Positions 15,466-31,368 of a stretch of DNA of 64,000 bases are shown piece by piece. A model generated the notes under the pieces. That model had not been told where the DNA came from. It was given only the letters and a program-made list of their open reading frames with translations, and made no database searches. Source of the DNA: Parahoeflea alexandrii. Its GTDB lineage: Bacteria; Pseudomonadota; Alphaproteobacteria; Rhizobiales; Rhizobiaceae. The stretch is taken from positions 1 through 64,000 of the forward strand of contig NZ_JAPWHB010000003.1 of NCBI RefSeq assembly GCF_027214025.1, given 5' to 3'. How positions within the stretch are numbered: the first letter of the stretch is position 1; every line of letters starts with the position of its first letter. The translations under genes were made by a program, and so were the position numbers.

Positions 15466-15485
15466 GGAATTTCTCTCACCGGTTC

Positions 15486-15514
15486 ACCGGGGTGACGGCA
15501 ATCGCCACCCCGGT
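15486..15514. other. Intercistronic stem-loop after the TRAP receptor gene
   Basis: ACCGGGGTG at 15486-15494 pairs perfectly with CACCCCGGT at 15506-15514 across an 11-nt loop. It lies between the dctP-like stop and the flavoprotein start and has no T-run. It is therefore more likely an mRNA-stabilising or partial-termination hairpin that keeps receptor expression high than a full terminator. Confidence 0.55.
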
Positions 15515-15522
15515 ATTGGCTG

Positions 15523-16518: not shown

Positions 16519-16562
16519 GAATTTCTCCTTTTGGTGGGTTGATGGGCTGAAGAAGGTCGGCC

Positions 16563-17861
16563 TCAATATCCGAACAGGCGCGGCAGATAGAGGGACAGGT
16601 CGGGCCAGAACGAGGTGAGGAACACGACGGGCACATAGCCAGTGACGATCAGGAACATCGCCGGCGGGATGACCTTGGTGACCTTGACCTTGCCGATCCG
16701 GGCGCCGAGGTAGAGGATCGAGGCATAGGGGGGCGTGACGCCGCCCATCGCCGTGTTGACACCCATGATCGCGGCGAACTGGACCGGACTGACCCCGATG
16801 GCGGTCATCAGTGGCAGCAACAGCGGCGCGATCAGGATTATCGCCGTCACGTCGTTGACGACCATGCCGACCAGGAACAGCAGGATGTTGATGAAGATCA
16901 GCAGCAGGACCTTGTTTTCGGTGATCAGGAAAATGCTCGACACGATCTGCTGCGGGATGCTTTCGTAGACGAACATCTGGCTCAGGATCATGGAAAAGAG
17001 GATCATGAACATGATCGCGCCGACGGCGGTGGCGGCCTCCTTGCCTGCGGCGAGGAAATTGGAGAGACGCAGGCCCTTGTAGACCAGGAAGCCAACCGGC
17101 ACCGAATAGATCACGGAAACCGCGGCGGCCTCGGTCGGTGTCATGATGCCACCATAGATCCCGCCGAGAATGATGACGGGCATCAACAGCGCCGGAAATG
17201 CGTGAATGCCGCGCCTGGCGACTTCGGTGGACAGCTCACCGAAGGTTGGCTTGTCATCGAGGATCAGGTTGAACTTGCGGCTGATCCACAGGTTCATGAT
17301 CGAGAAGCTGAGCATGATCAGAAGACCCGGCCCAAGCGTTGCAAGAAAGCAGGCAAGGATCGAGGTATCGGTCACCCAGCCATAGACGATCATCGTCACC
17401 GAAGGCGGGATCAGCAGTCCCAGGATCGACGAGTTGGCGATCAGCGCGGTCGCGTATTCCCGCGGATAGCCACGCTTTTCCATCTCTGGGATCAGGATCG
17501 GACCAATGGCGGCAATGCCGGTGAGACCCGACCCGGAAATGGCGCCGATGACGGCACAACTGACTGCCGCCACCACACCCAGACCGCCGCGGACGTGGCC
17601 GACGAATGCGTTGACAAATCGCAGGAGTGACGCCGCGATGCCGCTTTCGGACATGATCGTGCCAGCCAGCACGAACAGCGGGATTGCCAGCAGGATCGGG
17701 TTGCCGTGCTGCTGTACGCCCCACAGCATCATGCCCTTCATCGTCACATCGCCGATGAAATACATGACCATCAAGGCAGCCCCGAAGCAGTAGGGCAGCG
17801 GCACGCCGAGGGTCAGCGTGACCACCAGAACAGCGATGGCAATGAGCGCGATCTCGATCAT
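16563..17861 (-). CDS. TRAP transporter large permease (DctM family)
   Basis: 432 aa from MIEIALIAI at 17861; the longer frame to 18047 only reads through the DctQ gene in another frame. The ATG overlaps the DctQ stop (ATGA). Hallmarks include ISGSGLTGIAAIGPILIPEM, ILGLLIPPSVTMIVYG, MTPTEAAAVSVIY and GGVTPPYASILYLGARI. It is the sodium-coupled membrane subunit. About 12 hydrophobic segments are visible. Confidence 0.93.
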   Translation of the reverse strand: MIEIALIAIAVLVVTLTLGVPLPYCFGAALMVMYFIGDVTMKGMMLWGVQQHGNPILLAIPLFVLAGTIMSESGIAASLLRFVNAFVGHVRGGLGVVAAVSCAVIGAISGSGLTGIAAIGPILIPEMEKRGYPREYATALIANSSILGLLIPPSVTMIVYGWVTDTSILACFLATLGPGLLIMLSFSIMNLWISRKFNLILDDKPTFGELSTEVARRGIHAFPALLMPVIILGGIYGGIMTPTEAAAVSVIYSVPVGFLVYKGLRLSNFLAAGKEAATAVGAIMFMILFSMILSQMFVYESIPQQIVSSIFLITENKVLLLIFINILLFLVGMVVNDVTAIILIAPLLLPLMTAIGVSPVQFAAIMGVNTAMGGVTPPYASILYLGARIGKVKVTKVIPPAMFLIVTGYVPVVFLTSFWPDLSLYLPRLFGY

Positions 17862-18328
17862 GCGACAGTTCCGTTCTTCAAGGTGAGGATGTGCCGGATG
17901 AGATGCCAGGCCGTGTAGACCATCATCAAAGTGACGCCCACGAGCAGCGCGACATCGGAGTAGAAGGTCGGGATGTAGAGCGTCGGGCTTTCGCGCCAGA
18001 CGCGCCATGCGTACCTGGTGTAGTCCCAGGCCCAGCCGAGAATCCAAAGGCCGACGGCCAGGCTGATGATTTCTCCGACAATGGCGAGGATGGTGTGGGC
18101 CCGTTCGGACTTGAGGAAGATCTCGAGCACGTTGGCGCGGATATGGGTGTTCTCGCGCGACGCATTGATCGCCCCGAAGATGTAGAGCCAGATCGTCGGA
18201 TAGAGCATCGTTTCCTCAAGGCCCATCACCGGGATCTGGAAAACGTAGCGTGTAATGACCTGGACAAACTGTCCAAGCGCCACCAGACAGATCAGCCCGG
18301 TCAGCAAGACGGCTGCGAAACGATCCAT
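17858..18328 (-). CDS. TRAP transporter small permease (DctQ family)
   Basis: 156 aa from MDRFAAVLL, with GGGGG ahead of the ATG; the frame runs on to 18454, but those codons would cross the LysR operator. Four hydrophobic helices, GLEETMLYPTIW and a basic NTHIRANVLEIFL loop are typical of DctQ. First gene of the amine-dehydrogenase operon, divergent from the LysR gene at 18428. Confidence 0.9.
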   Translation of the reverse strand: MDRFAAVLLTGLICLVALGQFVQVITRYVFQIPVMGLEETMLYPTIWLYIFGAINASRENTHIRANVLEIFLKSERAHTILAIVGEIISLAVGLWILGWAWDYTRYAWRVWRESPTLYIPTFYSDVALLVGVTLMMVYTAWHLIRHILTLKNGTVA

Positions 18329-18386
18329 CGTGTCCCCCCAATTGAAAACCGCAGGGAGACGATCATCCAGGACTAGCCATAAAGCC

Positions 18387-18422
18387 AAATCCAAAATATT
18401 GTTCAGGCTATAAATTGGATTT
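18387..18422. promoter_or_regulatory. LysR operator: long-spaced perfect inverted repeat
   Basis: AAATCCAA at 18387-18394 and TTGGATTT at 18415-18422 form a perfect 8-bp inverted repeat with a 20-bp AT-rich spacer. It sits in the divergent space and ends 5 bp before the LysR GTG start. That position fits negative autoregulation by the LysR protein plus activation of the dctQ operon on the other strand. Confidence 0.6.
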
Positions 18423-18427
18423 ATATC

Positions 18428-19345
18428 GTGCTGCCCAACCTGACCATTCGGCAACTTCAGACCTTCCGCGAAGTGATGCGCAGCGGCTCAATCTCGGAGG
18501 CAAGCCGCACGCTTTTGCGCACGCAGCCTGCGGTCAGCACGATGATTGCCAATATCGAGAAGGAGCTTGGGTTCAACCTTTTTGTCCGCGAGCACGGGCG
18601 GCTTACGCCATCGCCGGAAGCGCACTACTTCCTGGAGGAAGCCGAGGAGGTTCTCGACCGGCTGGACCGGACCGTCCGGACGATGTCGGAGTTTGGAACG
18701 CTCGACCGGGGCAGCCTCCGGATAGCCTGCCACCCCGCATCTTCCGGCTTCTTCCTGCCCAAGGTGCTGGCCGAATTCCTCAAGGGCAGGCCCGACGTGA
18801 AAGCAGACCTCGTCATGCGCAGCTCGCAGGTCATCGAGGACATGATCGCCTCGCAGGAATTCGACATCGGGCTGGCCGAAACCCCGCGTCAGCGCAGCTC
18901 CATCAGGATCGAACCCTTCAGGCTTGAGTGTGTGATTGCGCTCCCGGAACAAGACCCTCTTGCAAGCAAGGATGTTCTCACTCCGGCCGATCTGGAAAAC
19001 TATCCGATGGCGATGCTTTTCAGCGATCACCCCGACACGCTGGCAACGCAACGGGCGTTTGCCCAGTGTGGCGCGACGCTGAACCGGCGTTTTGTGCTCA
19101 GAACCTCTCTGCCCGCTCTTCCGCTTGTCGGTGCGGGCCTGTGCGGCGCGATCGTTGACCGGATTACGGCAGCCACCAGCCCGGCCCCGGGGGTCGTGTT
19201 TCGCAGATTTACGCCCGTGATCGCAAGCAGCATCGCGCTTCTGCTCCCGGCACAGCGGCCTGCATCCATCCTGACAACCGCATTCAGGGACTACCTGCGC
19301 CAGCACCTCGTGCAGGTCGAGAACACCTTGATCTCGACAGGTTGA
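18428..19345 (+). CDS. LysR-family transcriptional regulator
   Basis: 305 aa, GTG start at 18428. N-terminal winged helix-turn-helix (LTIRQLQTFREVMRSGSIS, RTQPAVSTMIANIEKELG) and a two-lobed effector domain from about residue 90. The overall layout resembles the OccR/NocR opine regulators, but I cannot prove orthology. It is divergent from the TRAP/HcnABC-like operon, and the inverted repeat at 18387-18422 overlaps the space between the starts, so it most likely activates that operon when its amine substrate is present. Confidence 0.9.
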   Translation: MLPNLTIRQLQTFREVMRSGSISEASRTLLRTQPAVSTMIANIEKELGFNLFVREHGRLTPSPEAHYFLEEAEEVLDRLDRTVRTMSEFGTLDRGSLRIACHPASSGFFLPKVLAEFLKGRPDVKADLVMRSSQVIEDMIASQEFDIGLAETPRQRSSIRIEPFRLECVIALPEQDPLASKDVLTPADLENYPMAMLFSDHPDTLATQRAFAQCGATLNRRFVLRTSLPALPLVGAGLCGAIVDRITAATSPAPGVVFRRFTPVIASSIALLLPAQRPASILTTAFRDYLRQHLVQVENTLISTG

Positions 19346-19484: not shown

Positions 19485-19832
19485 CTAGAGAGCCGCGATG
19501 CAGATGATCTCGACCTTGTAGTCGGGCGTCGCCAGCCGGGATTCGCCGGTGGCGCGCGCCGGGGCGTTGCCGGGCGAAACCCAGCCGTCCCAGACGGCGT
19601 TCATCTCGGCGAAATCGTCCATCGACGCCATCCAGATCGTCGCCTGCAGGATCTTGCTCTTGTCGGAGCCAACCGAAGCCAGCAGCCGGTCGATATTGGC
19701 GAGAACATCCTGGGTCTGCTGCGTGACGCTGGCGCCGGCAGTGCCGACCTGGCCAGCCAGATAGACCAGTCCGCCGTGGACAACGGCCTGGCTCATGCGC
19801 GGGCCTGTTTCGAAACGTTTGATGTCGCTCAT
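19485..19832 (-). CDS. RidA-family enamine/imine deaminase
   Basis: 115 aa from MSDIKRFETG; the frame extends to 19925, but this ATG lies 5 bp after the upstream stop and follows AGGGA. Family pattern: YLAGQVG, VLANIDRLLASVG, ILQATIWMASM and ARATGESRLA. It closely resembles the RidA at 12333 (both share MNAVWD followed by a W-x-x-G-x-APARA stretch), so they are likely paralogues assigned to two amine-oxidising operons. Last gene of the ten-ORF polyamine-type operon, coupled to the flavoprotein before it. Confidence 0.9.
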   Translation of the reverse strand: MSDIKRFETGPRMSQAVVHGGLVYLAGQVGTAGASVTQQTQDVLANIDRLLASVGSDKSKILQATIWMASMDDFAEMNAVWDGWVSPGNAPARATGESRLATPDYKVEIICIAAL

Positions 19833-19837
19833 GTGTT

Positions 19838-20956
19838 TTATCCCTGTTGAAGATTGAGTGCAGCCCGTCCTGGGCCGAGTGCTTCCAGTACGGCCGGGTC
19901 CAGCGACGATGGCCGCCCCAGGCACAAATCCGCGGCCAGCTGCGACAGCGCCGGCGCCGTCTGCATGCCATAGCCGCCCTGCCCAGCGAGCCAGAAGAAG
20001 CCTTCGGCGTCCGGCGCGAAACCGACCACCGGCGTCCTGTCCGGCGCAAAGGTGCGCATCCCGGCCCAGGAGTGCTCGACCCTCGTGACCGGCGTGGTCA
20101 CGGCCTGTTCGTAGCGGTGCAGCCCCTCGGCAATCACCATGTCGTCGGCCCAGACGTCATGCGGTTCGACCGGGTCCTCGTCGGCCGGCGAGATCATCAG
20201 CTTGCCGGCTTCGGGCTTGGCGTACCACTGGTCGCCGGCATTGGCGAACAGCGGCCAGCGATTGATGTCATGGCCATCGGGCGCCGGGATCAGCGCCGCC
20301 GAGCGGCGCAAAGGGGTCAGTCCCAGCATTCTCAGACCAGCCATATGCGCGACAGCATCGGCCCAGCCGCCAGCGGCGTTGACCAGCACAGGGGCTGAAA
20401 ACTCTCCAGCCGGCGTCACAACCGTCCACAGGCCATCGCGGCGGGTGATCGACTGCGCCGGTGCAGCGTTGACGATGCTGCCGCCACACCATCGCAACAG
20501 GCGGGCAAAGCCCTGCAGCATGCGATCGACATCGATGTCCTGCGCGTCCCATTCGATCGCCGCGGCGGCGATGGCGTCGGATCGCAGGATCGGCACCAGC
20601 TCCAGCGCCTGGGCGGGGGAAAGCCGTTCCAGCCCGTCGCTGCCATCGAGATAGGCGTCGAACTTCGGCAGATCATCATCCGTCGCCAGCAGCAATTCGC
20701 CGCGCGGCGACAGCAGGCTCGAGTCCGATACGCCTTCGGGTTGCGCCAGAAACGGCGCCGAGGCGGCATTGAGCGCCCGCAGGGTGGCATTGCCGTAATT
20801 GCGGATGAAGATCGCCGCCGAACGCCCGGAGGAGTGATGGCCGATCATCGGCTCGGCCTCGAGCACGGTCACCTTCGCCTCAGGCGCCAGCCGGGCCGCG
20901 GCACTGATGCCGGCAATACCGCCACCGATCACCAGAATGTCTGAGAATGTGCTCAT
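19838..20956 (-). CDS. FAD-dependent oxidoreductase, D-arginine-dehydrogenase-like (DAO family)
   Basis: 372 aa. FAD fold at the N-terminus (ILVIGGGIAGISAAARLA), then GHHSSGRSAAIFIRNYGN, which resembles the flavin-proximal loop of D-arginine dehydrogenase DauA, and GFFWLAGQGGYGMQTAP near the C-terminus. It would oxidise a D-amino acid or related amine to an imino acid, which the RidA encoded 5 bp downstream can hydrolyse. Its ATG overlaps the stop of the deacetylase gene (ATGA). Substrate unknown; a basic amino acid or polyamine derivative fits the importer. Confidence 0.85.
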   Translation of the reverse strand: MSTFSDILVIGGGIAGISAAARLAPEAKVTVLEAEPMIGHHSSGRSAAIFIRNYGNATLRALNAASAPFLAQPEGVSDSSLLSPRGELLLATDDDLPKFDAYLDGSDGLERLSPAQALELVPILRSDAIAAAAIEWDAQDIDVDRMLQGFARLLRWCGGSIVNAAPAQSITRRDGLWTVVTPAGEFSAPVLVNAAGGWADAVAHMAGLRMLGLTPLRRSAALIPAPDGHDINRWPLFANAGDQWYAKPEAGKLMISPADEDPVEPHDVWADDMVIAEGLHRYEQAVTTPVTRVEHSWAGMRTFAPDRTPVVGFAPDAEGFFWLAGQGGYGMQTAPALSQLAADLCLGRPSSLDPAVLEALGPGRAALNLQQG

Positions 20957-21975
20957 CCTGACTGATACCCGTTGAGAAAGCTGGTCAGATTGTCGCCCAG
21001 GTCGGAGGACAGATAGCCGCCTTCCTGCACGATGACTGACGGCAGGTCCAGCCCCGCGATCGCGGATGCGATGCTGGCAAACCCTGGCGTTGTTACCTTG
21101 AAGCCATGGAACGGATCGTTCTCGTGCGCATCGAGCCCCAGCGCCAGCACCAGAACATCGGCGCCGAACGACCGGATCCGGGCGAGTGCTGCTTCCAGTG
21201 CGTCAAGATAGTCCGCATCTTCGGTGCCGCGAGGCAGCGGCAGGTTGAGATTGTATCCCATTCCCTCGCCCTCGCCGCGCTCGGCCGCATGGCCCCAGTA
21301 GAACGGGTAGAAACGGGCCGGATCGGCATGGATCGACACCGTCAGCACGTCGCGGCGATGATAGAAGATTCCTTGCGTGCCGTTGCCGTGATGCACGTCG
21401 ATATCGAGAATTGCCGGACGGTGACCGGCGCGCAGCAGCGCCTGCGCGGCAATTGCGGAATTGTTGAGAAAGCAGAATCCGCCGGCCAGATCGCCAAACG
21501 CATGGTGGCCGGGCGGACGGCAGAGCGCATAGGCCGTGCGTTCACCGCCAAGCACAAGGTCGGCAGCGCTCAACGCCGTCTGTGCCGACCAATAGGCGGA
21601 TTGCCAGGTTCCGGCGGCGATCGGGCAGGACGTGTCCGCCTGGTGGAAGCCGGCCTGGCCGGCCGCGGAACTCGGATAGCTGGCGGTGCGCCGGTCCGGA
21701 TGGATGTTCGGGACCACCTCTTCGGAGGCGCCTTCGGTGCGCAGCCAGCGATCGTGGATGGTTTCGAGAAAGCTCAGATATTCGGGCGAATGGATCTCGG
21801 CGATCGGGCCGGCGCCGTGATCGGCCGGCGTGGCGAAGTCGCACCCGGCAGCCCGGGCGCCGCGAGTCAGTTCCGCTATCCGCTGCGGCTGCTCCGGATT
21901 GGCGGAAAGCCTGCCATTCGCCATGAAATGCTTCGGATCATGCGCCCATTGACGCTCGTCGAATATCGCCTTCAT
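20953..21975 (-). CDS. Zinc-dependent acetylpolyamine amidohydrolase-like deacetylase (class II HDAC-like)
   Basis: 340 aa, the usual length of the family. Catalytic His-His in CRPPGHHAFG, zinc ligands Asp and His in LDIDVHHGNGTQG and a further Asp in LGLDAHENDPF, and the transition-state Tyr in QEGGYL. The LG-D-x-x-ENDP loop is typical of acetylpolyamine amidohydrolases rather than histone deacetylases. It removes acetyl from N-acetylated terminal amines such as N8-acetylspermidine or acetylputrescine. In this operon, with a Pot-type importer and an aminotransferase, it probably acts first on an imported N-acetylated substrate. Confidence 0.9.
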   Translation of the reverse strand: MKAIFDERQWAHDPKHFMANGRLSANPEQPQRIAELTRGARAAGCDFATPADHGAGPIAEIHSPEYLSFLETIHDRWLRTEGASEEVVPNIHPDRRTASYPSSAAGQAGFHQADTSCPIAAGTWQSAYWSAQTALSAADLVLGGERTAYALCRPPGHHAFGDLAGGFCFLNNSAIAAQALLRAGHRPAILDIDVHHGNGTQGIFYHRRDVLTVSIHADPARFYPFYWGHAAERGEGEGMGYNLNLPLPRGTEDADYLDALEAALARIRSFGADVLVLALGLDAHENDPFHGFKVTTPGFASIASAIAGLDLPSVIVQEGGYLSSDLGDNLTSFLNGYQSG

Positions 21976-22088
21976 GCCTCGTCTCCCAATGACTCACAGG
22001 CCTTCATGCCGGCCGACAGATCGGCCAGCGCTCGATTCAAGCCAGCCACATCTGCCGGCACGGCGCGCCTGATGTTGGTGTCATCCAT
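21972..22088 (-). pseudogene. 38-aa GNAT-like N-terminal fragment, coupled to the deacetylase
   Basis: A 38-codon frame, MDDTNIRRAVPADVAGLN then RALADLSAG, starts 2 bp after the BKACE stop and ends in an ATGA overlap with the deacetylase start. IRRAVPADVAGL looks like the first strand and helix of a GNAT acetyltransferase, but the acetyl-CoA-binding core is absent. It is either a shortened GNAT relic kept for translational coupling or a new microprotein. The clean overlaps on both sides argue that it is translated. Confidence 0.5.
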
Positions 22089-22090
22089 GT

Positions 22091-23017
22091 TCAAAATCTC
22101 ACCCTGTCCCTGCCTTTCAGCTCCAGCATCGCACGCGCCTCGTCGGGCGTTGCCACCTCGCGGCCGGCCGATTCGACGATTTCGCGCACCATCTCCACCT
22201 GCTCGGCATTGGATTTCGCCAGTTGACCGCGGGCGATGTAGAGATTGTCTTCGAGACCTACCCGAACATGGCCGCCCATTGCGGCGCCGAGCTCGGCCAA
22301 GGCCATTTGCCGGCGGCCGGCGGCAAGCACGGAGAACATGTAGTCGGCACCAAACAGGCTGTCGGCGGTTTGCTTGAGATAGGCCAGGTGCTCGGGTTCG
22401 GCGGCGACACCACCGAGAACCCCCATGACGAACTGGATGAAGATCGGCGCTTGGACGAGACCGCGCTCGACAAAATGATGCAGCATATGCAGATGGCCGA
22501 GGTCATAGCATTCGAACTCGAACCGCGCGCCGCGCTCGCGTCCCATCAGCCGCAGCACGGTTTCGATGTCGCGGGGCGTGTTCTTGAAAACCAGGTCATC
22601 GGACTCGCGCAGGAAGGGCTCTTCCCAGTCATGCAGCCACTCGGTGCGCTTGCCGAGCATCGGGTAGAGCGCGAAATTCATCGTGCCCATGTTGAGCGAA
22701 CACATTTCCGGCTCGGCGGCCATCGGCCCGGCGAGGCGCTGCTCCATCGTCATCACCGCGCTGCCGCCGGTGGTGAGATTGATCACCGCATCGGTCGCCG
22801 CCCTGATGGCGGGAAGGAACGTCATGTAGTCGGCGACGGCGGCCGAGGGTCGCCCGTCCCGCGGATCGCGGGCATGCAGGTGCAGGATGGCCGCCCCGGC
22901 CGCCGCCGCGCCGATGGCCTGTTCGGCGATCGCCTCGGGAGTTACCGGCAGATAGGGCGACATCGACGGCGTGTGGATGGAGCCGGTGACGGCGCAGGAG
23001 ATGATGATCTTCGACAT
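22091..23017 (-). CDS. Beta-keto acid cleavage enzyme (BKACE, DUF849 family)
   Basis: 308 aa, normal for the family. Zinc-site region AAILHLHARDPRDG, substrate-loop NLTTGGSAV, GRERGARFEFECYDLGH, and the Glu-Asp of VRVGLEDNLY. BKACE enzymes condense a beta-keto acid with acetyl-CoA and give acetoacetate plus a shorter acyl-CoA; known members act on 3-keto-5-aminohexanoate (Kce) and dehydrocarnitine. GGGGA lies upstream of the ATG. It lies 12 bp after the aminotransferase gene, which suggests the aminotransferase makes its beta-keto acid substrate. Which member of the family it is cannot be told by eye. Confidence 0.92.
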   Translation of the reverse strand: MSKIIISCAVTGSIHTPSMSPYLPVTPEAIAEQAIGAAAAGAAILHLHARDPRDGRPSAAVADYMTFLPAIRAATDAVINLTTGGSAVMTMEQRLAGPMAAEPEMCSLNMGTMNFALYPMLGKRTEWLHDWEEPFLRESDDLVFKNTPRDIETVLRLMGRERGARFEFECYDLGHLHMLHHFVERGLVQAPIFIQFVMGVLGGVAAEPEHLAYLKQTADSLFGADYMFSVLAAGRRQMALAELGAAMGGHVRVGLEDNLYIARGQLAKSNAEQVEMVREIVESAGREVATPDEARAMLELKGRDRVRF

Positions 23018-23029
23018 GCAGATCCCCGG

Positions 23030-24376
23030 TCAGACCGTCTCGACCGCAAGCCCGGCATTGGCGGCGAACCTGTCGAGTGCCGTGGTCAGCATGTCGATGA
23101 GTTCGTCGACCTGCCCTTCGGTGATGATCATCGGCGGACAGACCAGGAAATGGTCACCTTCGATGCCGCCGCGGGTGCGCCGCGAATAGATGATCAGGCC
23201 TTCGGCATAGGCGAGTTCCACCAGTTCGAGATAGGCATTGAGCGCCTTTGGCAGCGGCTGCATCGTCTCCCGGTCGGACACCAGCTCGAAGGCCAGCAGC
23301 AGACCTTCGCCGCGCACATCGCCAATAAAGGAAAACCGCTGCATCAGATTTTCAAGCCGGGTCTTGAGCAGGGCGCCCATGCGGGCGGCATTCTGCATCA
23401 GACCGCCGGTTTCGATTTCCTCCAGCACCGCCAGGCCCGCGGCACAGGCCTGCGGGTTGCCGGCATAGGTGTGACCGTGCAGGAACCCGCCGGCATCCAG
23501 CACCGGATCGATCAGCCGGTCCTGCGCAATCATCGCGCCCAGTGGTGCGTAGCCTGCGCCAAACCCCTTGGAGATGGCAATGATATCGGGCTCGACGCCG
23601 AAATGCTCCGCGCCCATGAACTTGCCGGTGCGCCCGCCGCCCGACATCACTTCGTCATGGATCAGCAGCACGCCGTAGCGGTCACAGATCTCGCGCACCG
23701 CCTGCATGTATCCGGCCGGTGGCACCAGCGCTCCGGTTGACGCGCCACCGATCGGCTCCTGGATGTAGGCCAGCACCGTGTCGGGTCCTTCTTCGAGGAT
23801 CCTGGCTTCGAGCATGGCCGCGTAATGGGCGCCGGTCGCGGGATCCTCCATCGCCAGGCCATCGAGATAGGCGCGCGGCGCCGGGATCTTCGGCATCGCC
23901 TGCATCATCGGCAGGAACGGATCGGACAATGGCGCGTATCCGGTCAGCGCCAGGGCGCCAAGGGTGGAGCCATGGTAGCTCGGGTCGCGCGAGATCACCT
24001 TCCAGCGCGATCCCTGGCCGACAGTCACGGCATATTGCCGCGCCAGCTTGATGGCGCTTTCCACCGCCTCCGATCCGCCGGAGACAAAAAAGACCTTCTC
24101 CATGCCTTCAGGCGAGAGCGATGCCACCCTGGTGGCGAGTTGTTCGCTTGCCTCGGTTTCGAAATGCAGCCGGTAGCCGAAGGTCGACTTTTCCATCTGC
24201 CGGCGCATGGCCTCCAGAACCCTGGGATTGGAGTGGCCGATATTGGAAACCATGGCGCCGGACGAGCCGTCGAGATAGCGCTTGCCGTCGACATCCCACA
24301 TGTAGACGCCGTGGGCTTCGGCCAGAACCGGGCGGCGGGCGCGGGTCTGGTAGAACAGATGGCTATCGGGTTTCAC
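23030..24376 (-). CDS. Class III PLP-dependent aminotransferase
   Basis: 448 aa; GTG start at 24376 overlapping the ABC ATPase stop (GTGA). Motifs: GKRYLDGSSGAM, VSGGSEAVESAIKLA, LLIHDEVMSGGGRTG, AISKGFGAGYAPLGA with the PLP lysine, and HGHTYAGNPQACAAGL. The family includes omega- and beta-amino-acid:pyruvate transaminases. Encoded between a polyamine-type importer and a BKACE enzyme, it most plausibly converts a beta-amino acid to the beta-keto acid that BKACE cleaves. Confidence 0.92.
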   Translation of the reverse strand: MKPDSHLFYQTRARRPVLAEAHGVYMWDVDGKRYLDGSSGAMVSNIGHSNPRVLEAMRRQMEKSTFGYRLHFETEASEQLATRVASLSPEGMEKVFFVSGGSEAVESAIKLARQYAVTVGQGSRWKVISRDPSYHGSTLGALALTGYAPLSDPFLPMMQAMPKIPAPRAYLDGLAMEDPATGAHYAAMLEARILEEGPDTVLAYIQEPIGGASTGALVPPAGYMQAVREICDRYGVLLIHDEVMSGGGRTGKFMGAEHFGVEPDIIAISKGFGAGYAPLGAMIAQDRLIDPVLDAGGFLHGHTYAGNPQACAAGLAVLEEIETGGLMQNAARMGALLKTRLENLMQRFSFIGDVRGEGLLLAFELVSDRETMQPLPKALNAYLELVELAYAEGLIIYSRRTRGGIEGDHFLVCPPMIITEGQVDELIDMLTTALDRFAANAGLAVETV

Positions 24377-25461
24377 GAAAGGCTCTCCACCGGAAGCGCG
24401 GCGCAGTCCCTGGCGCGGAACTGCAAGGCCACCTTCGCTCCCGTGGCAAAGGGGCGGTCCTCGATCATGTTGATGGCCTGCATCTGATGATCGCCGACAC
24501 GGACGAAATAGCGGGCGGACTGGCCCTGATAGTCGACGTTCTCGACAACCGCATCGACCGTCAGCATGCCCTCCGCCGGCGTACCTTCAGGTTTCAGATG
24601 CAGTTTCTCGGCACGGATCACCAGCCGCACCGGGCCGGGCCCGGATACTCGCGGCGCCCGATCCTTCGGGATTGCGATTTTCGGAAAGTCCGGCAGTTCG
24701 AGCGCGATGTCACCGCCCGCCATGTCCGAGCACCGGGCAGAGAGCAGGTTCGAGGCGCCAAGGAACTTCGCGACAAATTCGGTCGCGGGCGTGTTGTAGA
24801 CCTCTTCCGGCGCGCCAACCTGTTCGACGCGGCCTTCGGACATGACGATGATCTGGTCCGACATTGCCAGCGCCTCGGTCTGGTCGTGTGTGACAAACAC
24901 CGTGGTCACGCCGATGCTTTGCTGGATGCGCTTGAGTTCGACCCGCATGTCCTCGCGCAGATTGGCGTCGAGCGCCGACAGCGGCTCGTCGAGCAGCAGC
25001 ACGTCCGGTTCGATGACGATGGCGCGCGCCAGCGCGATGCGCTGCTGCTGGCCGCCGGAAAGTTCCTTCGGATAGCGCGCCCCGAGATCGGGCAATTGCA
25101 CCAGTTCGAGTGCCGCGGCGACCTTGCGCCTGGCTTCATCCTTTGGGACATTGCGATAATTCAGGCCGAAGGCGACGTTGTCGGCAACCGTCTTGTGCGG
25201 AAACAGCGCATAGTTCTGGAAAACCAGGCCGAGATTGCGCTTGTGGATCGGCACATCGTTGACCCGTTTGCCCTTGATGGCGATTTCGCCTTCCGTCGGA
25301 TCCAGCAGGCCGGCGATCATGCGCAAGGTCGTGGTCTTGCCGCAGCCCGACGGTCCGAGCAGGGTGACGAAACTGCCCTCTTCTATCTCCAGCGACATCT
25401 GGTGCACGGCGGTGTAGTCGCCAAAGCGCTTGACGATATTGCTCAGGGATACGGCGCTCAC
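24373..25461 (-). CDS. Polyamine-type ABC transporter ATPase (PotA-like)
   Basis: 362 aa, GTG start with GGAGG nine bases upstream. Walker A LGPSGCGKTT, Q-loop VFQNYALFPH, signature LSGGQQQR, Walker B LLLDEPLSALD, switch VTHDQTEAL, then a TOBE domain from about residue 270. All catalytic positions are intact. It powers the importer formed with the two permeases and receptor encoded just upstream. Confidence 0.93.
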   Translation of the reverse strand: MSAVSLSNIVKRFGDYTAVHQMSLEIEEGSFVTLLGPSGCGKTTTLRMIAGLLDPTEGEIAIKGKRVNDVPIHKRNLGLVFQNYALFPHKTVADNVAFGLNYRNVPKDEARRKVAAALELVQLPDLGARYPKELSGGQQQRIALARAIVIEPDVLLLDEPLSALDANLREDMRVELKRIQQSIGVTTVFVTHDQTEALAMSDQIIVMSEGRVEQVGAPEEVYNTPATEFVAKFLGASNLLSARCSDMAGGDIALELPDFPKIAIPKDRAPRVSGPGPVRLVIRAEKLHLKPEGTPAEGMLTVDAVVENVDYQGQSARYFVRVGDHQMQAINMIEDRPFATGAKVALQFRARDCAALPVESLS

Positions 25462-25494
25462 AGCATCATGCCTCCGGGTTTGCAGGGAGCCGGC

Positions 25495-25511
25495 CCCGCC
25501 ACGACGGCGGG
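25495..25511. other. Intercistronic stem-loop after the receptor gene
   Basis: CCCGCC at 25495-25500 pairs with GGCGGG at 25506-25511 around a five-base loop, in the 63-bp gap between the receptor stop and the ATPase start. No T-run, so it is probably an mRNA 3'-end stabiliser for the receptor message within the operon. Confidence 0.5.
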
Positions 25512-25524
25512 ACCGGGGGTTGGC

Positions 25525-26670
25525 TTAGTAGCCGCGCTGGACGCGGCCGAATTCCTTCGACCAGTCCGCCTCGTTGCCGTTCCAGTAGGCCGGATTGGCA
25601 AAGGTCAGGCCGGCAAGCGTGCCGGTCGGATCGAAGGCGGGAAGTTTCGGAATCTTGGTGCCAAGATCGACCTTGGTCGGATCGAGCGCCGGCGGATAGC
25701 TCTGGCCTTCGGCCACGGCAATCGAGGTATCCTTGTCGAGCATGAAGTTGAGCAGTTCCTCGCAGGCCGCCATCGGGCTGCCTCTCAACACGAACAGGCA
25801 TTCCTGCCAGCCGAACCCGTTCGGCGGATCGTAGTAGCCGATGTCGTGGCCCTGTTCCTGCAGCGCGTAGATGCGGCCAGACCAGCCCTCGGTGACGTGG
25901 ATTTCCTCCTCGGCCAGGAGGCTCATCAGCTCCGCGCCGGACGCCCAGTATTTCAGCGCCAGGTCGCGGTGCTTGCGCACGGCGTCCCACGCGGCTTCGG
26001 TGTCCGTGATGTTGTTGGGATCCTGTCCGGTCTGCAACGCCGCGTACCACATGCGGGTGCGCCAGTCGCTCCAGCCGCCGATCTTGCCCTTGTATTTCTC
26101 GTCGATGAGGATCTTTGCGCCCTTTTCCTTCATCTCCTCGTCGGAGATGAACTTGCGGTTATAGGCAAGACCCGTGGTGCCGTAATCGTAGGGCGCGGCA
26201 CTGAGGCTGTCGGGCGTAATCGTCTTGAAGGCGTTCATCAGCGCCGGCATGACATTGGCCATGTTCGGAATGTTGGCGACGTTGAGTTCGCTGGTCAGGT
26301 CGAAGCTGGCGTAGCGGGCATAATCGAACACGCCTGACAAATGGGCGATGTTGTATTCGCCGGGCTGGCTTGCGCGCACCAGCGCGAGATACTCGTCGCC
26401 GCCCGGGAAGGTGCCGTCGATGACCTTGATGCCAGTCTTTTCGGTGTAGGGATCGAAGGCATATTTGCGGAAGGCTTCCGACACGACGCCGCCCCAACCG
26501 TCAAAGCGGACCTGGCTGACATCGGCCGCGGCAAAGGCCTGCCGGGCAAACGGCATCTGCAGGCCATAGGCAGCGCCGGCGGCGCCAAGCAGGCCAAAGA
26601 AATTGCGGCGGCTGATATCGCCGTTCTGGAACCGCTCGCGCAGTCGTTCATAGCGTCTTGTGTCGTCCAT
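25525..26670 (-). CDS. Polyamine-type ABC transporter substrate-binding protein (PotD-like), Tat signal
   Basis: 381 aa from MDDTRRYER; TGGAG lies six bases before this ATG. The longer frame only reads through the permease gene. The N-terminus has a twin-arginine signal, SRRNFFG, followed by a hydrophobic stretch and FAAADV, so the receptor is exported folded. The mature protein fits the PotD/PotF family (YEKTGIKVIDG, NIAHLSGVFDY, VTEGWSGRIYALQ). Ligands in the family are polyamines, opines and related cations. It captures the operon substrate in the periplasm. Confidence 0.88.
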   Translation of the reverse strand: MDDTRRYERLRERFQNGDISRRNFFGLLGAAGAAYGLQMPFARQAFAAADVSQVRFDGWGGVVSEAFRKYAFDPYTEKTGIKVIDGTFPGGDEYLALVRASQPGEYNIAHLSGVFDYARYASFDLTSELNVANIPNMANVMPALMNAFKTITPDSLSAAPYDYGTTGLAYNRKFISDEEMKEKGAKILIDEKYKGKIGGWSDWRTRMWYAALQTGQDPNNITDTEAAWDAVRKHRDLALKYWASGAELMSLLAEEEIHVTEGWSGRIYALQEQGHDIGYYDPPNGFGWQECLFVLRGSPMAACEELLNFMLDKDTSIAVAEGQSYPPALDPTKVDLGTKIPKLPAFDPTGTLAGLTFANPAYWNGNEADWSKEFGRVQRGY

Positions 26671-26705
26671 CTTGTTCTCCATCTGGTTCAGGTTCACTTG
26701 GCGGT

Positions 26706-27491
26706 TTACCCACCGCTTCTTGTTGCAAGGCTTCGGGCGATCGCCGCGCCAATCAGCGGCAGCCCGACCGTCAGCACGATCATGACCGTGCCAAGAGCGT
26801 TGATCTCGGGAGAGATCGAATTGCGCAGCATCGAGAAGATCTGCGTCGGCACGGTCTCGATCCCGCCCGGCTTCCAGAACAGCGTCCCGGTGATGTCGTC
26901 GAAGCTGATGGTGAAGGCGAACAGGCCGCCCGCCGCGACCGCCGGCATCAGCAGCGGCAGCGTGATCGCGAAAAAGGTCTGCATCGGCGAGGCGCCGAGG
27001 CTGAGCGCCGCCTCCTCGACATCGCGCTTGATGCTGACCAGCCGGGCCTGCACCACCAGGATGACGAAGGGCAGCGTGAAAATGACATGGCCGGCGAGCA
27101 GCAGCGTGAAGCTCTTGCCGATATCGAGGAAATTGAGAAACAGGAGCAGCGCCACCGCCAACACCACTTCCGGCACCAGGATCGGCGCGATCAGCAGCGT
27201 GGTGATCAGGTTGCGGCCCGGAATCTTGTATCGCACCAGAGCCAGACTGGCCAATACTCCGAGTACGGTCGAAATCACCGCCGTCATCAGGCCGAGAACG
27301 ATCGAGGTCCGGAAGGCGCGCATGATCGCGCCGTTGTTCCACAACACCTCGAACCAGCGGGTCGACAGGCCGGTCATCGGGAAACTGCCGAACTGGTTGG
27401 CGTTGAACGACAACAGCACCACCACCGCGATCGGCAGGAACATGAACAGGTAGACCAGGATCGTGTAGGTGCGGATCAGACGCCAACCCAT
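26706..27491 (-). CDS. ABC transporter permease (PotC-like)
   Basis: 261 aa from MGWRLIRTY, overlapping the PotB-like stop by one base (TGATG). Six hydrophobic segments, with the ATPase-contacting EAA loop in EEAALSLGASPMQTFFAITLPLLMP. The FDDITGTLF segment near residue 205 is characteristic of PotC-type permeases. Membrane half of the importer. Confidence 0.92.
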   Translation of the reverse strand: MGWRLIRTYTILVYLFMFLPIAVVVLLSFNANQFGSFPMTGLSTRWFEVLWNNGAIMRAFRTSIVLGLMTAVISTVLGVLASLALVRYKIPGRNLITTLLIAPILVPEVVLAVALLLFLNFLDIGKSFTLLLAGHVIFTLPFVILVVQARLVSIKRDVEEAALSLGASPMQTFFAITLPLLMPAVAAGGLFAFTISFDDITGTLFWKPGGIETVPTQIFSMLRNSISPEINALGTVMIVLTVGLPLIGAAIARSLATRSGG

Positions 27492-28357
27492 CAGCCAAGC
27501 CCCTTCGCCAGTTGCGCCATGCCGAGATAGCGGTTGTAGATCAGCACCAGGACGCCGAGGACTGCGAGCAGCAGCAGCGAAAGGGCTGAGCCGAGCGGCC
27601 AGTTGAGCTGGCGGATGATGGCCTCGTAGACAAGGTTGGCAAACATCGCGTCGCGCGGCCCGCCGAGGATGACCGGGGTGATGTAGGTGCCCGCGGCGAG
27701 GACGAAGCAGAGCAGCCCGCCGGCGGCGAGGCCCGGCAGCGACAGCGGCAGCGTGACCTGCAGGAAGCCCTGCCAGCGCGTCGCTCCCAGCGAGGATGCC
27801 GCGTCTTCGAGATTGGTGTCGATGCCGTCGAGGCTCACGAAAACATTGAGAACCATGAAGGGCAGCAGGAAATGGGTGAGGCCGAGGATCACGGTGGTCT
27901 CGTTGTAGAGCATCTGGATCGGCTCGTTGATGAGACCGAGCCAGATCAGCGCCGAATTGAGCGCCCCGGAGACGCCGAGAATGTTGATCCAGCTCATCGT
28001 GCGAATGATGTAGCTGATCCAGAACGGCAGCATCAGAAGCACGAGAAGCACCATCTTGTTGCCCCTGGACCGGGCGATAAAATAGGCCGCCGGATAACCA
28101 AGAAGCGCACAGGCGACGGTGGTTATGGCGGCAATCTTGAGGGTGTTGAGCAGGATGTCGCGATAGAAGGGATCGGTCAGCGTTTCCTGCCAGTTGTCGA
28201 GAAAGAAGCCAGGCGTGTCGGCGCCGGCCGCGCTCTTGAGCCAGAACGAATAGACGACGATGAACACCAGCGGCACGATCAGCAGCAGGCCAATCGCCGT
28301 CAGTGCCGGCGTCAGCAATATCCAAGGCTGTCGCGCCTCGCGTTGCTCGATGCTCAT
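27491..28357 (-). CDS. ABC transporter permease (PotB-like)
   Basis: 288 aa, six hydrophobic segments, with EDAASSLGATRWQGFLQVTLPLSLPG as the EAA loop and MLPFWISYIIRTMSW, a PotB-type stretch. First gene of the ten-ORF operon, divergent from the LysR gene at 28466, so its promoter lies in 28358-28465. Confidence 0.92.
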   Translation of the reverse strand: MSIEQREARQPWILLTPALTAIGLLLIVPLVFIVVYSFWLKSAAGADTPGFFLDNWQETLTDPFYRDILLNTLKIAAITTVACALLGYPAAYFIARSRGNKMVLLVLLMLPFWISYIIRTMSWINILGVSGALNSALIWLGLINEPIQMLYNETTVILGLTHFLLPFMVLNVFVSLDGIDTNLEDAASSLGATRWQGFLQVTLPLSLPGLAAGGLLCFVLAAGTYITPVILGGPRDAMFANLVYEAIIRQLNWPLGSALSLLLLAVLGVLVLIYNRYLGMAQLAKGLG

Positions 28358-28465: not shown

Positions 28466-29425
28466 ATGACCAGCCTCACTCCACCCGAACGATTGGCCCG
28501 TGATCTTGACTGGAATCTGCTGCGCACATTCCTCGTGCTTGCCGATTCCCGCTCGGTCACGGAAGCAGCGGAACGCCTGAGTTTGAAGCAGCCGACCGTC
28601 TCAAGCGCGCTCAAGCGGCTCGAGGACCGGCTCGGCAAACGGCTTATCAACCGCAAGCCCGGGCGGTTCGAGCTCACCGCCGCCGGCCGGCTTCTTTATG
28701 ACGAGGCAATCGATATCCACGGCGCCATCCTTCGGCTTGGCACGGCGATCAGGGATGTCGAAGACGAGGTCAGCGGCCATGTCCGCATCGTCATGGCGAG
28801 CCACGTCATCAGCCCCCTGTTCGACCAGACGCTGAACAAGTTCCACAAGGATCACCCGCGTGCCACCCTGTCGATCGAGGCGATGGCAAGCCGCAGCGCC
28901 TTGACGGCGGTTGCCGCGCGGCGCGCCTCGCTGGCCATTTGCCTGGTCATGGACCGAAGCCCGCAACTGGAGTACCGGCGCCTGTTCCGCGAGTATTTCG
29001 GCCTGTTCTGCGGGCCTACCCATCCGCTCTACGGCCGCGAAGGCGTGACCATTGCCGATCTCGCCGGCCATTCATCGGTCAGCTTCGTCACCGACCAGAT
29101 GGATGACGCGCTCAGGCCGGTGGCGCAGATGCGGGCCGAGGCGCAGCTCGATGCCCGCATTGTCGGTACGTCGCCGAATCTCGAGGAGGTGCGGCGGATG
29201 ATCATGGCCGGTCTCGGCATCGGCCCGTTGCCGCTGCACGTGGTGCGCGAGGACGTGGAGCGCGGGCGGCTCTGGCGGCTGCCGCCCTATGAGGCCCCCC
29301 CGGCCATCGATGTGCATGTGGTCTGGAACCCGCATGCCAAGCACAACCGCGCGGAAGCTGCCATGCTGACCGGCCTGACCGATCTGATCGCCCGCACCCC
29401 GATGGAAGAGCGCATCTACAATTAA
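28466..29425 (+). CDS. LysR-family transcriptional regulator
   Basis: 319 aa. The winged helix-turn-helix starts near residue 15 (LDWNLLRTFLVLADSRSVT, LKQPTVSSALKRLEDRLG) and the effector domain follows. No Shine-Dalgarno is seen; an abortive ATGAAATGA sits directly before the start, so the message may be leaderless or poorly translated. It is divergent from the Pot/BKACE operon and is its likely regulator. Confidence 0.9.
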   Translation: MTSLTPPERLARDLDWNLLRTFLVLADSRSVTEAAERLSLKQPTVSSALKRLEDRLGKRLINRKPGRFELTAAGRLLYDEAIDIHGAILRLGTAIRDVEDEVSGHVRIVMASHVISPLFDQTLNKFHKDHPRATLSIEAMASRSALTAVAARRASLAICLVMDRSPQLEYRRLFREYFGLFCGPTHPLYGREGVTIADLAGHSSVSFVTDQMDDALRPVAQMRAEAQLDARIVGTSPNLEEVRRMIMAGLGIGPLPLHVVREDVERGRLWRLPPYEAPPAIDVHVVWNPHAKHNRAEAAMLTGLTDLIARTPMEERIYN

Positions 29426-29507: not shown

Positions 29508-30326
29508 TCAGGTCCTGACGATGAAGCCCCTGGCGATATGGTTCCTGACGAAATAGATGACGGCAAGTCCGGGGATCAGTGACACAAGCGTCATTGCCAT
29601 GACCAGGCCGATATCGGTTCTAAACCCGTAGAGCGAACTGATGGCCATCGTGATCGGCTTGCCGGCAGTGACTGTCAGGATGCGCGCGAAGACAACCTCG
29701 ACCCACGAGAACATGAAGCAGAAGAAGGCGGCGACACCGACGCCGGGCGCAATCAGCGGCAGCAGTTGCCTGAGGAAGAAGCGCGGCAGGGAATAGCCAT
29801 CGAGGAACGCGGTTTCATCGAGTTCCCGTGGAACCGCGGAAATGAAGCTTTCCAGGATCCAGATGGCGATGGGGATGTTGAAGACACAATGCACCAGCGC
29901 GATCCCGACGGGCGAATTCACCAGGCCGACCTTGGCAAACAGGATGAAGACCGGAAGCGTCAGCACGACCGGCGGGGTGATCCTGAACGCAATCAGCAGC
30001 AGGAAGAGATGCCTGTCTCCGACAAACCGGTAGCGCGCTATGGCATAGGCCGCGGGAACCGCGACGAGGATCGTTATGACCACATTCAAGGTGACATAGA
30101 TCACCGAGTTGACGATCGAGCCCGACAGCAACGGCGACGCGACGATGTTCTGGAAGTTGATGGTGCTGAACTGCCCCTGGACGATGCCGTCTCGCGGCAG
30201 CGTGGAGGTGAAGCTCAGGATGAGCATCTGCAGGAACGGCAGCAGGATGAAGCCGGCGATGGCCGCCAGGAACAAGGCTGCCATCCAGGCTCTAAATCGG
30301 CTGGCTCGTGACGTGGCGCGCACCAT
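29508..30326 (-). CDS. ABC transporter permease, MalG/GlpQ-like (second copy)
   Basis: 272 aa with six hydrophobic segments and an EAA-type loop in DETAFLDGYSLPRFFLRQLLPLIAPG. It is plainly a paralogue of the GlpQ-like permease at 33451 (shared FFCFMFSWVE and VIYFVRN-IA). Its start touches the stop of the permease at 30326, forming a pair. No ATPase or receptor gene accompanies the pair, so it either shares GlpS/GlpT and GlpV or is an orphan half-transporter. Confidence 0.88.
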   Translation of the reverse strand: MVRATSRASRFRAWMAALFLAAIAGFILLPFLQMLILSFTSTLPRDGIVQGQFSTINFQNIVASPLLSGSIVNSVIYVTLNVVITILVAVPAAYAIARYRFVGDRHLFLLLIAFRITPPVVLTLPVFILFAKVGLVNSPVGIALVHCVFNIPIAIWILESFISAVPRELDETAFLDGYSLPRFFLRQLLPLIAPGVGVAAFFCFMFSWVEVVFARILTVTAGKPITMAISSLYGFRTDIGLVMAMTLVSLIPGLAVIYFVRNHIARGFIVRT

Positions 30327-31219: not shown

Positions 31220-31295
31220 ATCACGAAACCGGTCATGTCATGTCTGCGGCACTGTAGAACTTGCGATCGATAGCGGGCAATTGTCGGCCAGCCCC

Positions 31296-31330
31296 GAAAA
31301 ACAGGGGCCAGAACGGTGTGTTCCGGCCCC
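31296..31330 (-). terminator. Rho-independent terminator after glpV
   Basis: On the minus strand GGGGCC-G-GAAC and GTTC-T-GGCCCC form a stem of ten pairs with one mismatch and a five-base loop (31304-31330). It is followed by TGTTTTT (31296-31303). It lies 39 bp past the glpV stop and should end most glp transcripts before the second permease pair. Confidence 0.75.
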
Positions 31331-31368
31331 CTTTATGTTCAGCCAGATGCAGGCAGGTTCCCGAGAGC

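Follow-up and report, generated by a model that had tools for sequence, protein, structure and literature searches.

Protecting-group logic is known from biosynthesis and from the catabolism of amines in eukaryotes. When eukaryotes break down lysine or putrescine by N-acetyl routes, one amine is capped, the other is deaminated, and the acetyl group is removed at the end (4-acetamidobutanoate to GABA). These routes share the acetyl cap and the final deacetylation with the operon that we describe here, but they involve neither a BKACE nor a beta-amino acid. Lysine fermentation (by KamA, Kdd, and Kce) is similar in another way: a beta-amino acid is converted to a beta-keto acid, which is cleaved by a BKACE to acetoacetate and an acyl-CoA (PMC3149608). 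As set out in the available part of that account, it proceeds via 3,5-diaminohexanoate and an NAD(P)-linked dehydrogenase, with no acetyl cap described, while our operon has an aminotransferase, a GNAT, and a deacetylase. The catabolism of carnitine and of deoxyribonate (PMC12421898, PMC6365646) also yields beta-keto acids whose cleavage by BKACE has been proposed. However, in the available portions of those papers, the substrates are beta-hydroxy acids, the enzyme is a dehydrogenase, and no acetylation appears, whereas our operon would act on a beta-amino acid with an aminotransferase. N6-acetyl-beta-lysine is reported to have little if any turnover inside the methanogens that produce it (PMC1224877); the available part of that review does not mention other organisms using it. 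In the available portions of the open-licence PMC literature, we found neither this cluster nor the breakdown of N6-acetyl-beta-lysine described.

The window is a 64,000-nucleotide stretch of the genome of Parahoeflea alexandrii. Its minus strand carries, at 19485-28357, nine intact genes and a 38-codon remnant of a GNAT gene, arranged tail to head, with a divergent LysR gene (see table). A sequence-only reading had described such an operon, with these families and with ATGA/GTGA-type overlaps. The profile matches agree with the families, and we found three overlaps: aminotransferase/PotA at 24373-24376, GNAT remnant/deacetylase at 21972-21975, and DAO/deacetylase at 20953-20956.

Table. Genes of the operon and the adjacent regulator, with positions in the window.
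Feature	Position	Strand	Evidence or remark
PotB-like ABC permease	27491..28357	-	NCBIfam PotB model, E 2.4e-60, under its cut-off
PotC-like ABC permease	26706..27491	-	NCBIfam PotC model, E 1.2e-62, under its cut-off
PotD/PotF-like solute receptor	25525..26670	-	SBP_bac_8; weak PotD/PotF sequence match; predicted fold
PotA-like ABC ATPase with TOBE domain, GTG start	24373..25461	-	Profile matches
Class III aminotransferase, GTG start	23030..24376	-	Pfam Aminotran_3, E 1e-98
BKACE	22091..23017	-	Pfam PF05853, E 6.6e-109
GNAT remnant (SSAT/thialysine-acetyltransferase type), internal in-frame deletion	21972..22088	-	Alignment to sister-species GNAT
HDAC-fold deacetylase, acetylpolyamine-amidohydrolase-like	20953..21975	-	Pfam Hist_deacetyl, E 4.4e-72
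DauA-like FAD-dependent amine/D-amino-acid dehydrogenase	19838..20956	-	Pfam DAO; DauA 3nyc, E 6.2e-83
RidA-family imine/enamine hydrolase	19485..19832	-	Pfam Ribonuc_L-PSP, E 4.9e-27
LysR-type regulator, divergent	28466..29425	+	Found beside many related operons

To examine the conservation of this linkage, we used the best 80 of 591 confirmed BKACE candidates, a set that is biased toward close relatives. The deacetylase lies downstream of BKACE on the same strand in 71 of these 80 loci, the aminotransferase is nearby in 64, and a GNAT immediately follows BKACE in 59; 47 loci contain all three. The aminotransferase is absent from 16 loci (two of which are at contig ends), and 21 have no GNAT beside BKACE. 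We also searched with the deacetylase, which is present at E ≤ 1e-90 in 103 of the 397 genomes of the order. BKACE was within the 1.5 kb flanks in 19 of 29 loci (the 30 best matches minus the window's own); at least three of these genomes apparently also contribute to the 80 (L008/L085, L009/L056, and L011/L051). Many genomes thus support the claim that the importer, aminotransferase, BKACE, and deacetylase form a catabolic unit; a lack of linkage in other genomes would have refuted the sequence-only reading, and the linkage is conserved. The cluster is common to many marine and soil bacteria, and it looks like an undescribed catabolic system for beta-amino acids with two amines.

Relatives without BKACE, without the GNAT, or without the aminotransferase speak against a rigid pathway, so we do not hold that all of the steps are required. 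These include aminotransferase-GNAT-deacetylase units without BKACE (L174 and L175), an aminotransferase and deacetylase alone (L183 and L184), and importer-GNAT-deacetylase-DAO-RidA without BKACE (L232). Other loci have importer-deacetylase-DAO-RidA (L250), an importer, a GNAT-like gene (34%), and the deacetylase without aminotransferase or BKACE (L177 and L178), importer-BKACE-DAO without the aminotransferase (L162), or a lone deacetylase (L176, L179, and L185-L187).

The GNAT remnant aligns to both ends of the GNAT that sister species carry at the same place, which indicates an internal in-frame deletion and bears out the earlier description of a relic. (By itself, the remnant has no Pfam match at E ≤ 0.01.) Because a GNAT follows BKACE in most of the best 80 loci, we take it to be an ancestral part of the operon, damaged in the window by this deletion. 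An intact copy lies elsewhere in the genome (G000:C67:79789-80271), next to a DAO remnant and RidA. The profile matches of this family were to thialysine acetyltransferase (6.8e-29), the unnamed N-acetyltransferase 2fe7, SSAT2, SSAT1, and ornithine N5-acetyltransferase, and the AlphaFold model of the intact copy (pLDDT 95) matched the same proteins. The relatives' GNATs and the intact copy are thus nearest to the SSAT/thialysine type by both sequence and fold, and the nearest named solved relatives use lysine analogues, ornithine, or diamines, whose terminal amines they acetylate. The operon's GNAT is of this type and may likewise acetylate a terminal amine. None of the GNATs that we scanned against NCBIfam exceeded a cut-off; the best match for the GNAT of L098 was streptothricin acetyltransferase (39.4 bits versus a cut-off of 420), a faint lead to beta-lysine that we did not use. 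Among 17 genomes with a GNAT-less BKACE neighborhood, 10 have GNAT homologs elsewhere, all of them weak (29-47% identity). Across the genome of one congener (G801, 99% complete), there is no GNAT match at E ≤ 1e-30, and the genome of L037, which is apparently the same assembly, has none at E ≤ 1e-8.

The aminotransferase matches its family profile, and Lys270, which falls in what we take to be the usual PLP-lysine motif, is invariant across 48 aligned sequences. The enzyme would act on a beta-amino acid, as suggested indirectly by its partners: BKACE or a CoA-transferase. Specifically, the window's own genome has a paralogous operon (L248) with an aminotransferase paralog (67%), in which 3-oxoacid CoA-transferase subunits A and B and an M20 deacylase stand where BKACE and the HDAC-fold enzyme would be. 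Two other operons with the paralog have a thiolase as well (L249 and L251), and L173 has aminotransferase-BKACE-GNAT-M20 deacylase with no HDAC match within 20 kb. So, this type of aminotransferase adjoins two unrelated routes for cleaving beta-keto acids and two unrelated deacylases. Together with the linkage to the GNAT, this favors the order acetylate, transaminate, cleave, deacetylate. The gene content, the linkage, the families, and these replacements underlie the pathway that we favor.

Specifically, we propose that the operon catabolizes an imported beta-amino acid with a second, terminal amine, and that the acetyl cap is removed last; we view this proposal as having about an even chance of being correct. 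We infer the order of the steps, the intermediates, and the roles of the GNAT and the flavoprotein. The ABC importer would take in the beta-amino acid, and the GNAT would acetylate its terminal amine. (For the window's genome, the cap might come from the GNAT outside the operon, or it might be unnecessary, should the compound be taken up in acetylated form.) The beta-amine would become a ketone through the action of the aminotransferase or, perhaps, of the DauA-like flavoprotein and RidA. BKACE and acetyl-CoA would split this neutral beta-keto acid into acetoacetate and an acetamido-acyl-CoA. The CoA would then be lost (there is no CoA-removing enzyme in the operon), and the HDAC-fold enzyme would take off the acetyl group. 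The cap would prevent cyclization, in which a free amine attacks either the ketone, to form a pyrroline, or the thioester, to form a lactam.

The deacetylase's five best solved relatives, at E 1.1e-94 to 1.9e-78, are all acetylpolyamine amidohydrolases. Like these enzymes, the deacetylase has the HDAC fold and the catalytic RPPGHH and EGGY motifs (PMC11532494), and the catalytic and zinc residues are invariant in all 125 aligned sequences (107 distinct). In contrast, several residues of the M. ramosa enzyme are not kept: the polyamine-binding Glu106 is absent from 125/125 sequences (L183 and L184 have Asp), Glu117 is found in 0/125, and at Ile291, in the PIS motif, all 125 have Phe, Leu, or Tyr. 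However, PsApaH, which is an active polyamine deacetylase, also lacks Glu106 (PMC11532494). The receptor falls below the cut-offs of NCBIfam's PotD and PotF models, with 38.9 bits against 582 for PotD. Its predicted fold (pLDDT 77, which is middling) is nearest to PotF, SpuD/E, PotD, and opine receptors, and these matches do not tell us the ligand.

The PotD-like receptor and the type of deacetylase fit the order in the sequence-only reading. There, a diamine or diamino acid enters the cell N-acetylated and begins by losing its acetyl group; transamination follows, and BKACE then cleaves a product whose amine is free. The loci with an importer and deacetylase but no BKACE (L177, L178, and L250) and the 21 of the best 80 loci without a GNAT beside BKACE are also consistent with this order. 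But in the 59 loci where a GNAT follows BKACE, it would reverse the first step, and a free 6-amino-3-keto acid would cyclize. Also, Glu14 of Kce, an enzyme with an amino substrate, is replaced by Ile or Val in 78/78 deacetylase-linked BKACEs; this would suit an uncharged side chain, although the replacement is also found in BKACE15 and hence is not specific. We consider deacetylation first to be unlikely. The part of that reading in which the aminotransferase produces a beta-keto acid and BKACE cleaves it stands, and since the GNAT is the deacetylase's usual partner, the pathway most likely begins with acetylation and ends with deacetylation.

It is similarly improbable, we think, that the operon serves to break down a D-amino acid or a compound that contains one, with the DauA-like dehydrogenase, RidA, and the relatives' DgcN-like and alanine-racemase-like genes as the core, and the aminotransferase and BKACE as a side branch or acting on the product. 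The flavoprotein's best solved relative is indeed the D-arginine dehydrogenase DauA (3nyc, E 6.2e-83), and among the best 80 of 591 loci, DAO is found in 27, RidA in 21, DgcN- or DgcA-like matches in 6, and Alr-like matches in 3. L162, which has DAO without the aminotransferase, and L232, which has DAO and RidA without BKACE, also fit. However, an alpha-keto acid is not a substrate for BKACE, and the 71 deacetylase-bearing loci among those 80 include 34 with the aminotransferase but not DAO and just 1 with the reverse (26 have both and 10 have neither). Also, L070's DgcN-like protein has a score of 227.4, where the cut-off is 480, and L055's enolase-superfamily protein is most similar to sugar-acid dehydratase models, again below the cut-off. 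(L055 was counted only because of this gene, at 29%.) The DAO/RidA, alanine-racemase-like, and DgcN-like genes recur at relatives' loci, and the scheme that we favor does not explain this. We doubt that DAO and RidA generally serve to recycle alanine for the aminotransferase, as DAO is kept where the aminotransferase was lost: in L162 and in three congeners, L233, L234, and L235 (the contig of L235 is apparently that of L039).

The window's BKACE matches PF05853 over its full length and has the catalytic Glu and a His46/His48 pair, which we take to be the zinc ligands. His46, His48, Glu169, and Arg252 are invariant in 78 deacetylase-linked BKACEs, and Glu169 corresponds to the catalytic Glu171 of BKACE15 (PMC11961710). 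The protein also exceeds the cut-off of NF053538, the 3,5-dioxohexanoate cleavage enzyme (492.2 versus 430 bits), and BKACE15 acts on 3,5-dioxohexanoate and beta-ketohexanoate (PMC11961710). So, the substrate might be a neutral beta-keto acid, or the corresponding amine, similar to those of BKACE15, with the acetyl enzymes serving a neighboring polyamine function. We think this is quite improbable because the clades are separate: in a tree of 105 sequences, the deacetylase-linked BKACEs cluster (10 label changes, versus a mean of 24.1 if shuffled, with 0/500 shuffles giving 10 or fewer) and are separate from BKACE15, 3e49, and 3e02, and the starred group of 6 that includes BKACE15 has no deacetylase-linked member. 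Furthermore, Thr198 and Trp230 of BKACE15 are replaced by Phe in 77/78 and 76/78 of the linked BKACEs, and the aminotransferase, GNAT, and deacetylase are linked to BKACE. We did not adopt the family's name. The sequence-only reading would have been undercut by a clade with an unrelated substrate, such as dehydrocarnitine; NF053538 does name another substrate, but the tree separates the clades. Dehydrocarnitine itself was dropped: the carnitine region (PMC12421898) has a dehydrogenase that our operon lacks. PMC4922564, in its available portion, gives BKACE substrate types only at the level of groups. We also examined eight BKACE loci from unlinked clades by eye: four have a 3-hydroxyacyl-CoA-dehydrogenase-like gene nearby (L113, L114, L157, and L164), one has a CoA-transferase (L104), and none of the eight has the window's type of aminotransferase directly beside BKACE.

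The acuABC operon pairs a GNAT (AcuA) with an HDAC (AcuC). The GNAT-HDAC pair in our operon recalls this, but a protein-acetylation switch on the pathway's enzymes, with a substrate that has no acetyl group, is very improbable: the GNAT's relatives act on small amines, an M20 small-molecule deacylase stands in for the HDAC in L173, and the deacetylase's five best solved relatives are the acetylpolyamine amidohydrolases, although one of these enzymes also removes acetyl groups from peptides (PMC11532494).

Our best guess for the substrate of the favored pathway is beta-lysine or N6-acetyl-beta-lysine. For beta-lysine, which remains a guess, N6-acetyl-beta-lysine would be converted to 6-acetamido-3-oxohexanoate, then to 4-acetamidobutanoyl-CoA and acetoacetate, then to 4-acetamidobutanoate, and finally to GABA. 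Bastard and colleagues (2014) reportedly included 6-acetamido-3-ketohexanoate among their test substrates for BKACE. Separately, 6-acetamido-3-oxohexanoate is named in one paper as a metabolomics match, which is not evidence for this operon.

More tentatively, and with appreciably less confidence than in the general scheme, we speculate that the osmolyte N6-acetyl-beta-lysine, along with beta-lysine, has its missing sink in this operon: marine Alphaproteobacteria would import these compounds and convert them to GABA and acetoacetate by acetyl-protected transamination and BKACE, with the GNAT re-capping free beta-lysine, and the sister operons would do the same with CoA-transferase and thiolase. 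If the pathway is correct, the bacterial use of beta-amino acids gains a catabolic route with protecting-group logic; the present vague labels of a BKACE clade, a GNAT, and a subfamily of bacterial HDAC-fold enzymes give way to functions; and beta-amino acid osmolytes gain a testable fate.

Lysine 2,3-aminomutase (KamA) is not encoded in the window's own genome, and the family was found in 5 of 25 other carriers (genomes that we chose). We therefore dropped the idea that these bacteria supply their own beta-lysine via KamA; it would have to be imported.

The operon that a sequence-only reading had proposed, ten ORFs from importer to RidA, is present in the window, with few-base overlaps at several gene junctions. 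Its genes encode, in order, PotB, PotC, a PotD-like receptor, PotA, a class III aminotransferase (AT), BKACE, the remnant of a GNAT (an N-acetyltransferase of the SSAT/thialysine-acetyltransferase type), an HDAC-fold deacetylase, a DauA-like flavoprotein (DAO), and RidA.

Features of the window, of other contigs of its genome (G000), and of one relative; L-numbers are loci
Feature	Location	Strand	Basis or content
Operon, 9 intact genes and 1 remnant	19485-28357	-	window sequence read, family matches
LysR gene, divergent	28466-29425	+	beside the operon
TRAP transporter genes	12354-18454		DctP by Pfam, rest by eye; same stretch has DAO-type and pyridine-redox/sarcosine-oxidase-alpha-like flavoproteins
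Further RidA-like stretch, 59%	12354-12683		
Second ABC importer	29508-33087		by eye; two permeases and a large solute-binding protein; adjoins the LysR gene
Sulfatase gene	51046-52758		Pfam
AT-paralog operon	G000:C21, L248:7015-15928		polar amino-acid importer, creatininase-like gene, 3-oxoacid CoA-transferase A/B, M20 deacylase
Contig 67 cluster	G000:C67:78564-80770 (L116/L121/L217)		outside the window; iron-type alcohol dehydrogenase-like gene (by eye) there too
958-codon reading frame, Hoeflea marina	L038:12421-15297		between deacetylase and DAO

The importer/AT/BKACE/deacetylase cluster is a real, conserved catabolic unit. We took the best 80 of 591 confirmed candidates from a genome search as BKACE-anchored loci and scanned them by tblastn with the window's genes and accessory genes, requiring a match to cover at least 35% of the query. 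Among these best 80, a same-strand deacetylase was found in 71, AT in 64 (including a 38% relative in L061), and GNAT in 59; GNAT was also seen as a complete reading frame in 37 loci. The proposed co-localisation of AT and deacetylase with BKACE is thus conserved: both are present in 60 of the best 80, and 47 have GNAT as well. The nine loci without a deacetylase include L064 and L077, whose sequence stops less than 1 kb downstream, and the 16 without AT include L090 and L104, each with fewer than 400 bases upstream. Loci anchored on the deacetylase agree (BKACE lies within the 1.5 kb flanks in 19/29), and some genomes are common to both sets.

The closest named relatives among the best 80 are Hoeflea species (BKACE 82-88%). 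Within the genus, BKACE is found at E ≤ 1e-140 in 14/18 genomes, counting the window's own. Other components vary across the best 80: 39 have an importer of the PotB/C/D type and 12 have one of the polar amino-acid ABC type, and we found DAO in 27, RidA in 21, DgcN- or DgcA-like matches in 6, M20-like genes in 6, and an alanine-racemase-like gene in 3. Eight of them (L098, L105, L107, L108, L110-L112, and L115) have a gene similar to the DMF-amidase beta subunit upstream of AT or BKACE (PF20254 in L105); it recurs regularly in clusters of the Mesorhizobium/Rhizobium type.

In a tree of 105 BKACE rows (with one identical pair, L103 and L159, apparently one contig), the deacetylase-linked proteins group together, with 10 label changes against a shuffled mean of 24.1 (0/500 shuffles as low), and stand apart from the references BKACE15, 3e49, and 3e02. 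Support varies along the backbone, with 15 forks left open, and contig ends account for some of the rows that fall in the linked cluster without being linked themselves. For a residue comparison, we set the 78 linked rows against 18 of our choice, namely 3/4 reference chains and the 15/23 unlinked rows that lie outside the linked clades. At position 196, 77/78 linked rows have Phe, where the 18 others have Thr, Ser, or Cys; position 228 is Phe in 76/78 and Trp in 15/18. NCBIfam names the window's BKACE as a 3,5-dioxohexanoate enzyme. Because the clade and these two positions differ, this name should not be transferred untried. Where the linked clade has Ile or Val, Kce, whose substrate is an amino keto acid, carries Glu14, which we take to contact the amine.

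The catalytic and zinc residues of the deacetylase are kept in all 125 aligned rows (107 distinct), and all have Asp115. Glu106 and Glu117 of the acetylpolyamine enzyme from M. ramosa are absent from 125/125 rows; L183 and L184 have Asp instead of Glu106. Because lone deacetylases (L176, L179, and L185-L187) have the same residue signature, it marks a subfamily and not this pathway.

In relatives, a GNAT gene of about 160 codons lies between BKACE and the deacetylase. The GNAT-like relic noticed earlier is indeed a remnant of this gene: 38 codons, retaining roughly the first 28 and the last few. The nearest relative that we found, the congener G800 (BKACE 94%), has the same scar, while L037 and the congener G801 (apparently one assembly) have a separate, larger loss. 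GNAT is kept in 9/11 congener BKACE loci that we read and gone in two; some of these genomes are already named loci. Contig 67 of the window's genome carries an intact GNAT (72% to the L036 GNAT). After it come a short piece of DAO and a RidA that shares 93% DNA identity with the window's RidA over 452 bp. The cluster seems to be a second operon copy that has decayed but kept its GNAT, the gene that is broken in the window. We did not find GNAT at E ≤ 1e-30 in G800 (75% complete) or G801 (99% complete). Profile and fold place GNAT among the thialysine, SSAT, and ornithine N5-acetyltransferases, which are enzymes of terminal amines; no NCBIfam model was reached at its cut-off by the GNATs scanned.

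An AT paralog (66-68% identical) is present in 11/18 genomes of the genus. In the window's genome (L248), its operon encodes both subunits of a 3-oxoacid CoA-transferase, and in L249 and L251 a thiolase is next. CoA-transferase with thiolase is the other well-known route for cleaving beta-keto acids, so this pairing is the best evidence that AT makes a beta-keto acid. The CoA-transferase could serve acetoacetate instead, but the stretches at L248, L249, and L251 have no BKACE as its source. Of 130 loci scanned, these three plus L104 and L107 were the only ones with a CoA-transferase match above 35%. L251 also has a second M20, an alanine-racemase-like gene, and, near LysR, a GNAT-like gene (40% to the L088 GNAT). 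In L173, an M20 deacylase of the ArgE/DapE type follows AT-BKACE-GNAT, in the usual position of the HDAC-fold gene.

The operon resembles both known BKACE pathways and known acetyl-capped amine catabolism. The reading that explains most, with fair support, is that the terminal amine would be acetylated, the beta-amine converted to a ketone, the product cleaved by BKACE, and the acetyl group removed last. We infer this logic because GNAT and the deacetylase flank the BKACE step, because this BKACE group is of the neutral-side-chain type, and because free 6-amino-3-keto acids and 4-aminobutanoyl thioesters cyclise.

Counting against acetyl protection, the modules separate in several lineages. 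Without BKACE there are AT-GNAT-deacetylase (L174, L175), AT-deacetylase (L183, L184), importer-GNAT-like-deacetylase (L177, L178), importer-GNAT-deacetylase-DAO-RidA (L232), and importer-deacetylase-DAO-RidA (L250). In ten deacetylase-bearing loci, AT and DAO are both missing nearby, and most of these ten have the set BKACE-GNAT-deacetylase. Another BKACE, which may or may not serve, is encoded at E ≤ 1e-60 in 13/14 genomes searched. KamA (lysine 2,3-aminomutase) is absent from the window's genome and from 20/25 carriers that we chose.

The same deamination step may be served by either AT or DAO/RidA. Three congeners (L233, L234, and L235, the last being L039) lost the operon's AT and kept DAO, and L162 has only importer-BKACE-DAO. 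This is only a lead, because those congeners carry the AT paralog elsewhere and because DAO occurs without AT in just 1/71 deacetylase-bearing loci among the best 80 of 591.

The acetyl-protection reading does not account for the D-amino-acid-type genes downstream. In L070, L072, L075, L081, and L091, a DgcN-like N-acetyltransferase (under the model cut-off) and an enolase-superfamily-like gene follow the deacetylase, in the place of DAO/RidA in other loci. In L045 and L067, a creatininase-like gene lies within the polar amino-acid importer operon upstream of AT, which feeds the same AT-BKACE-GNAT-deacetylase set.
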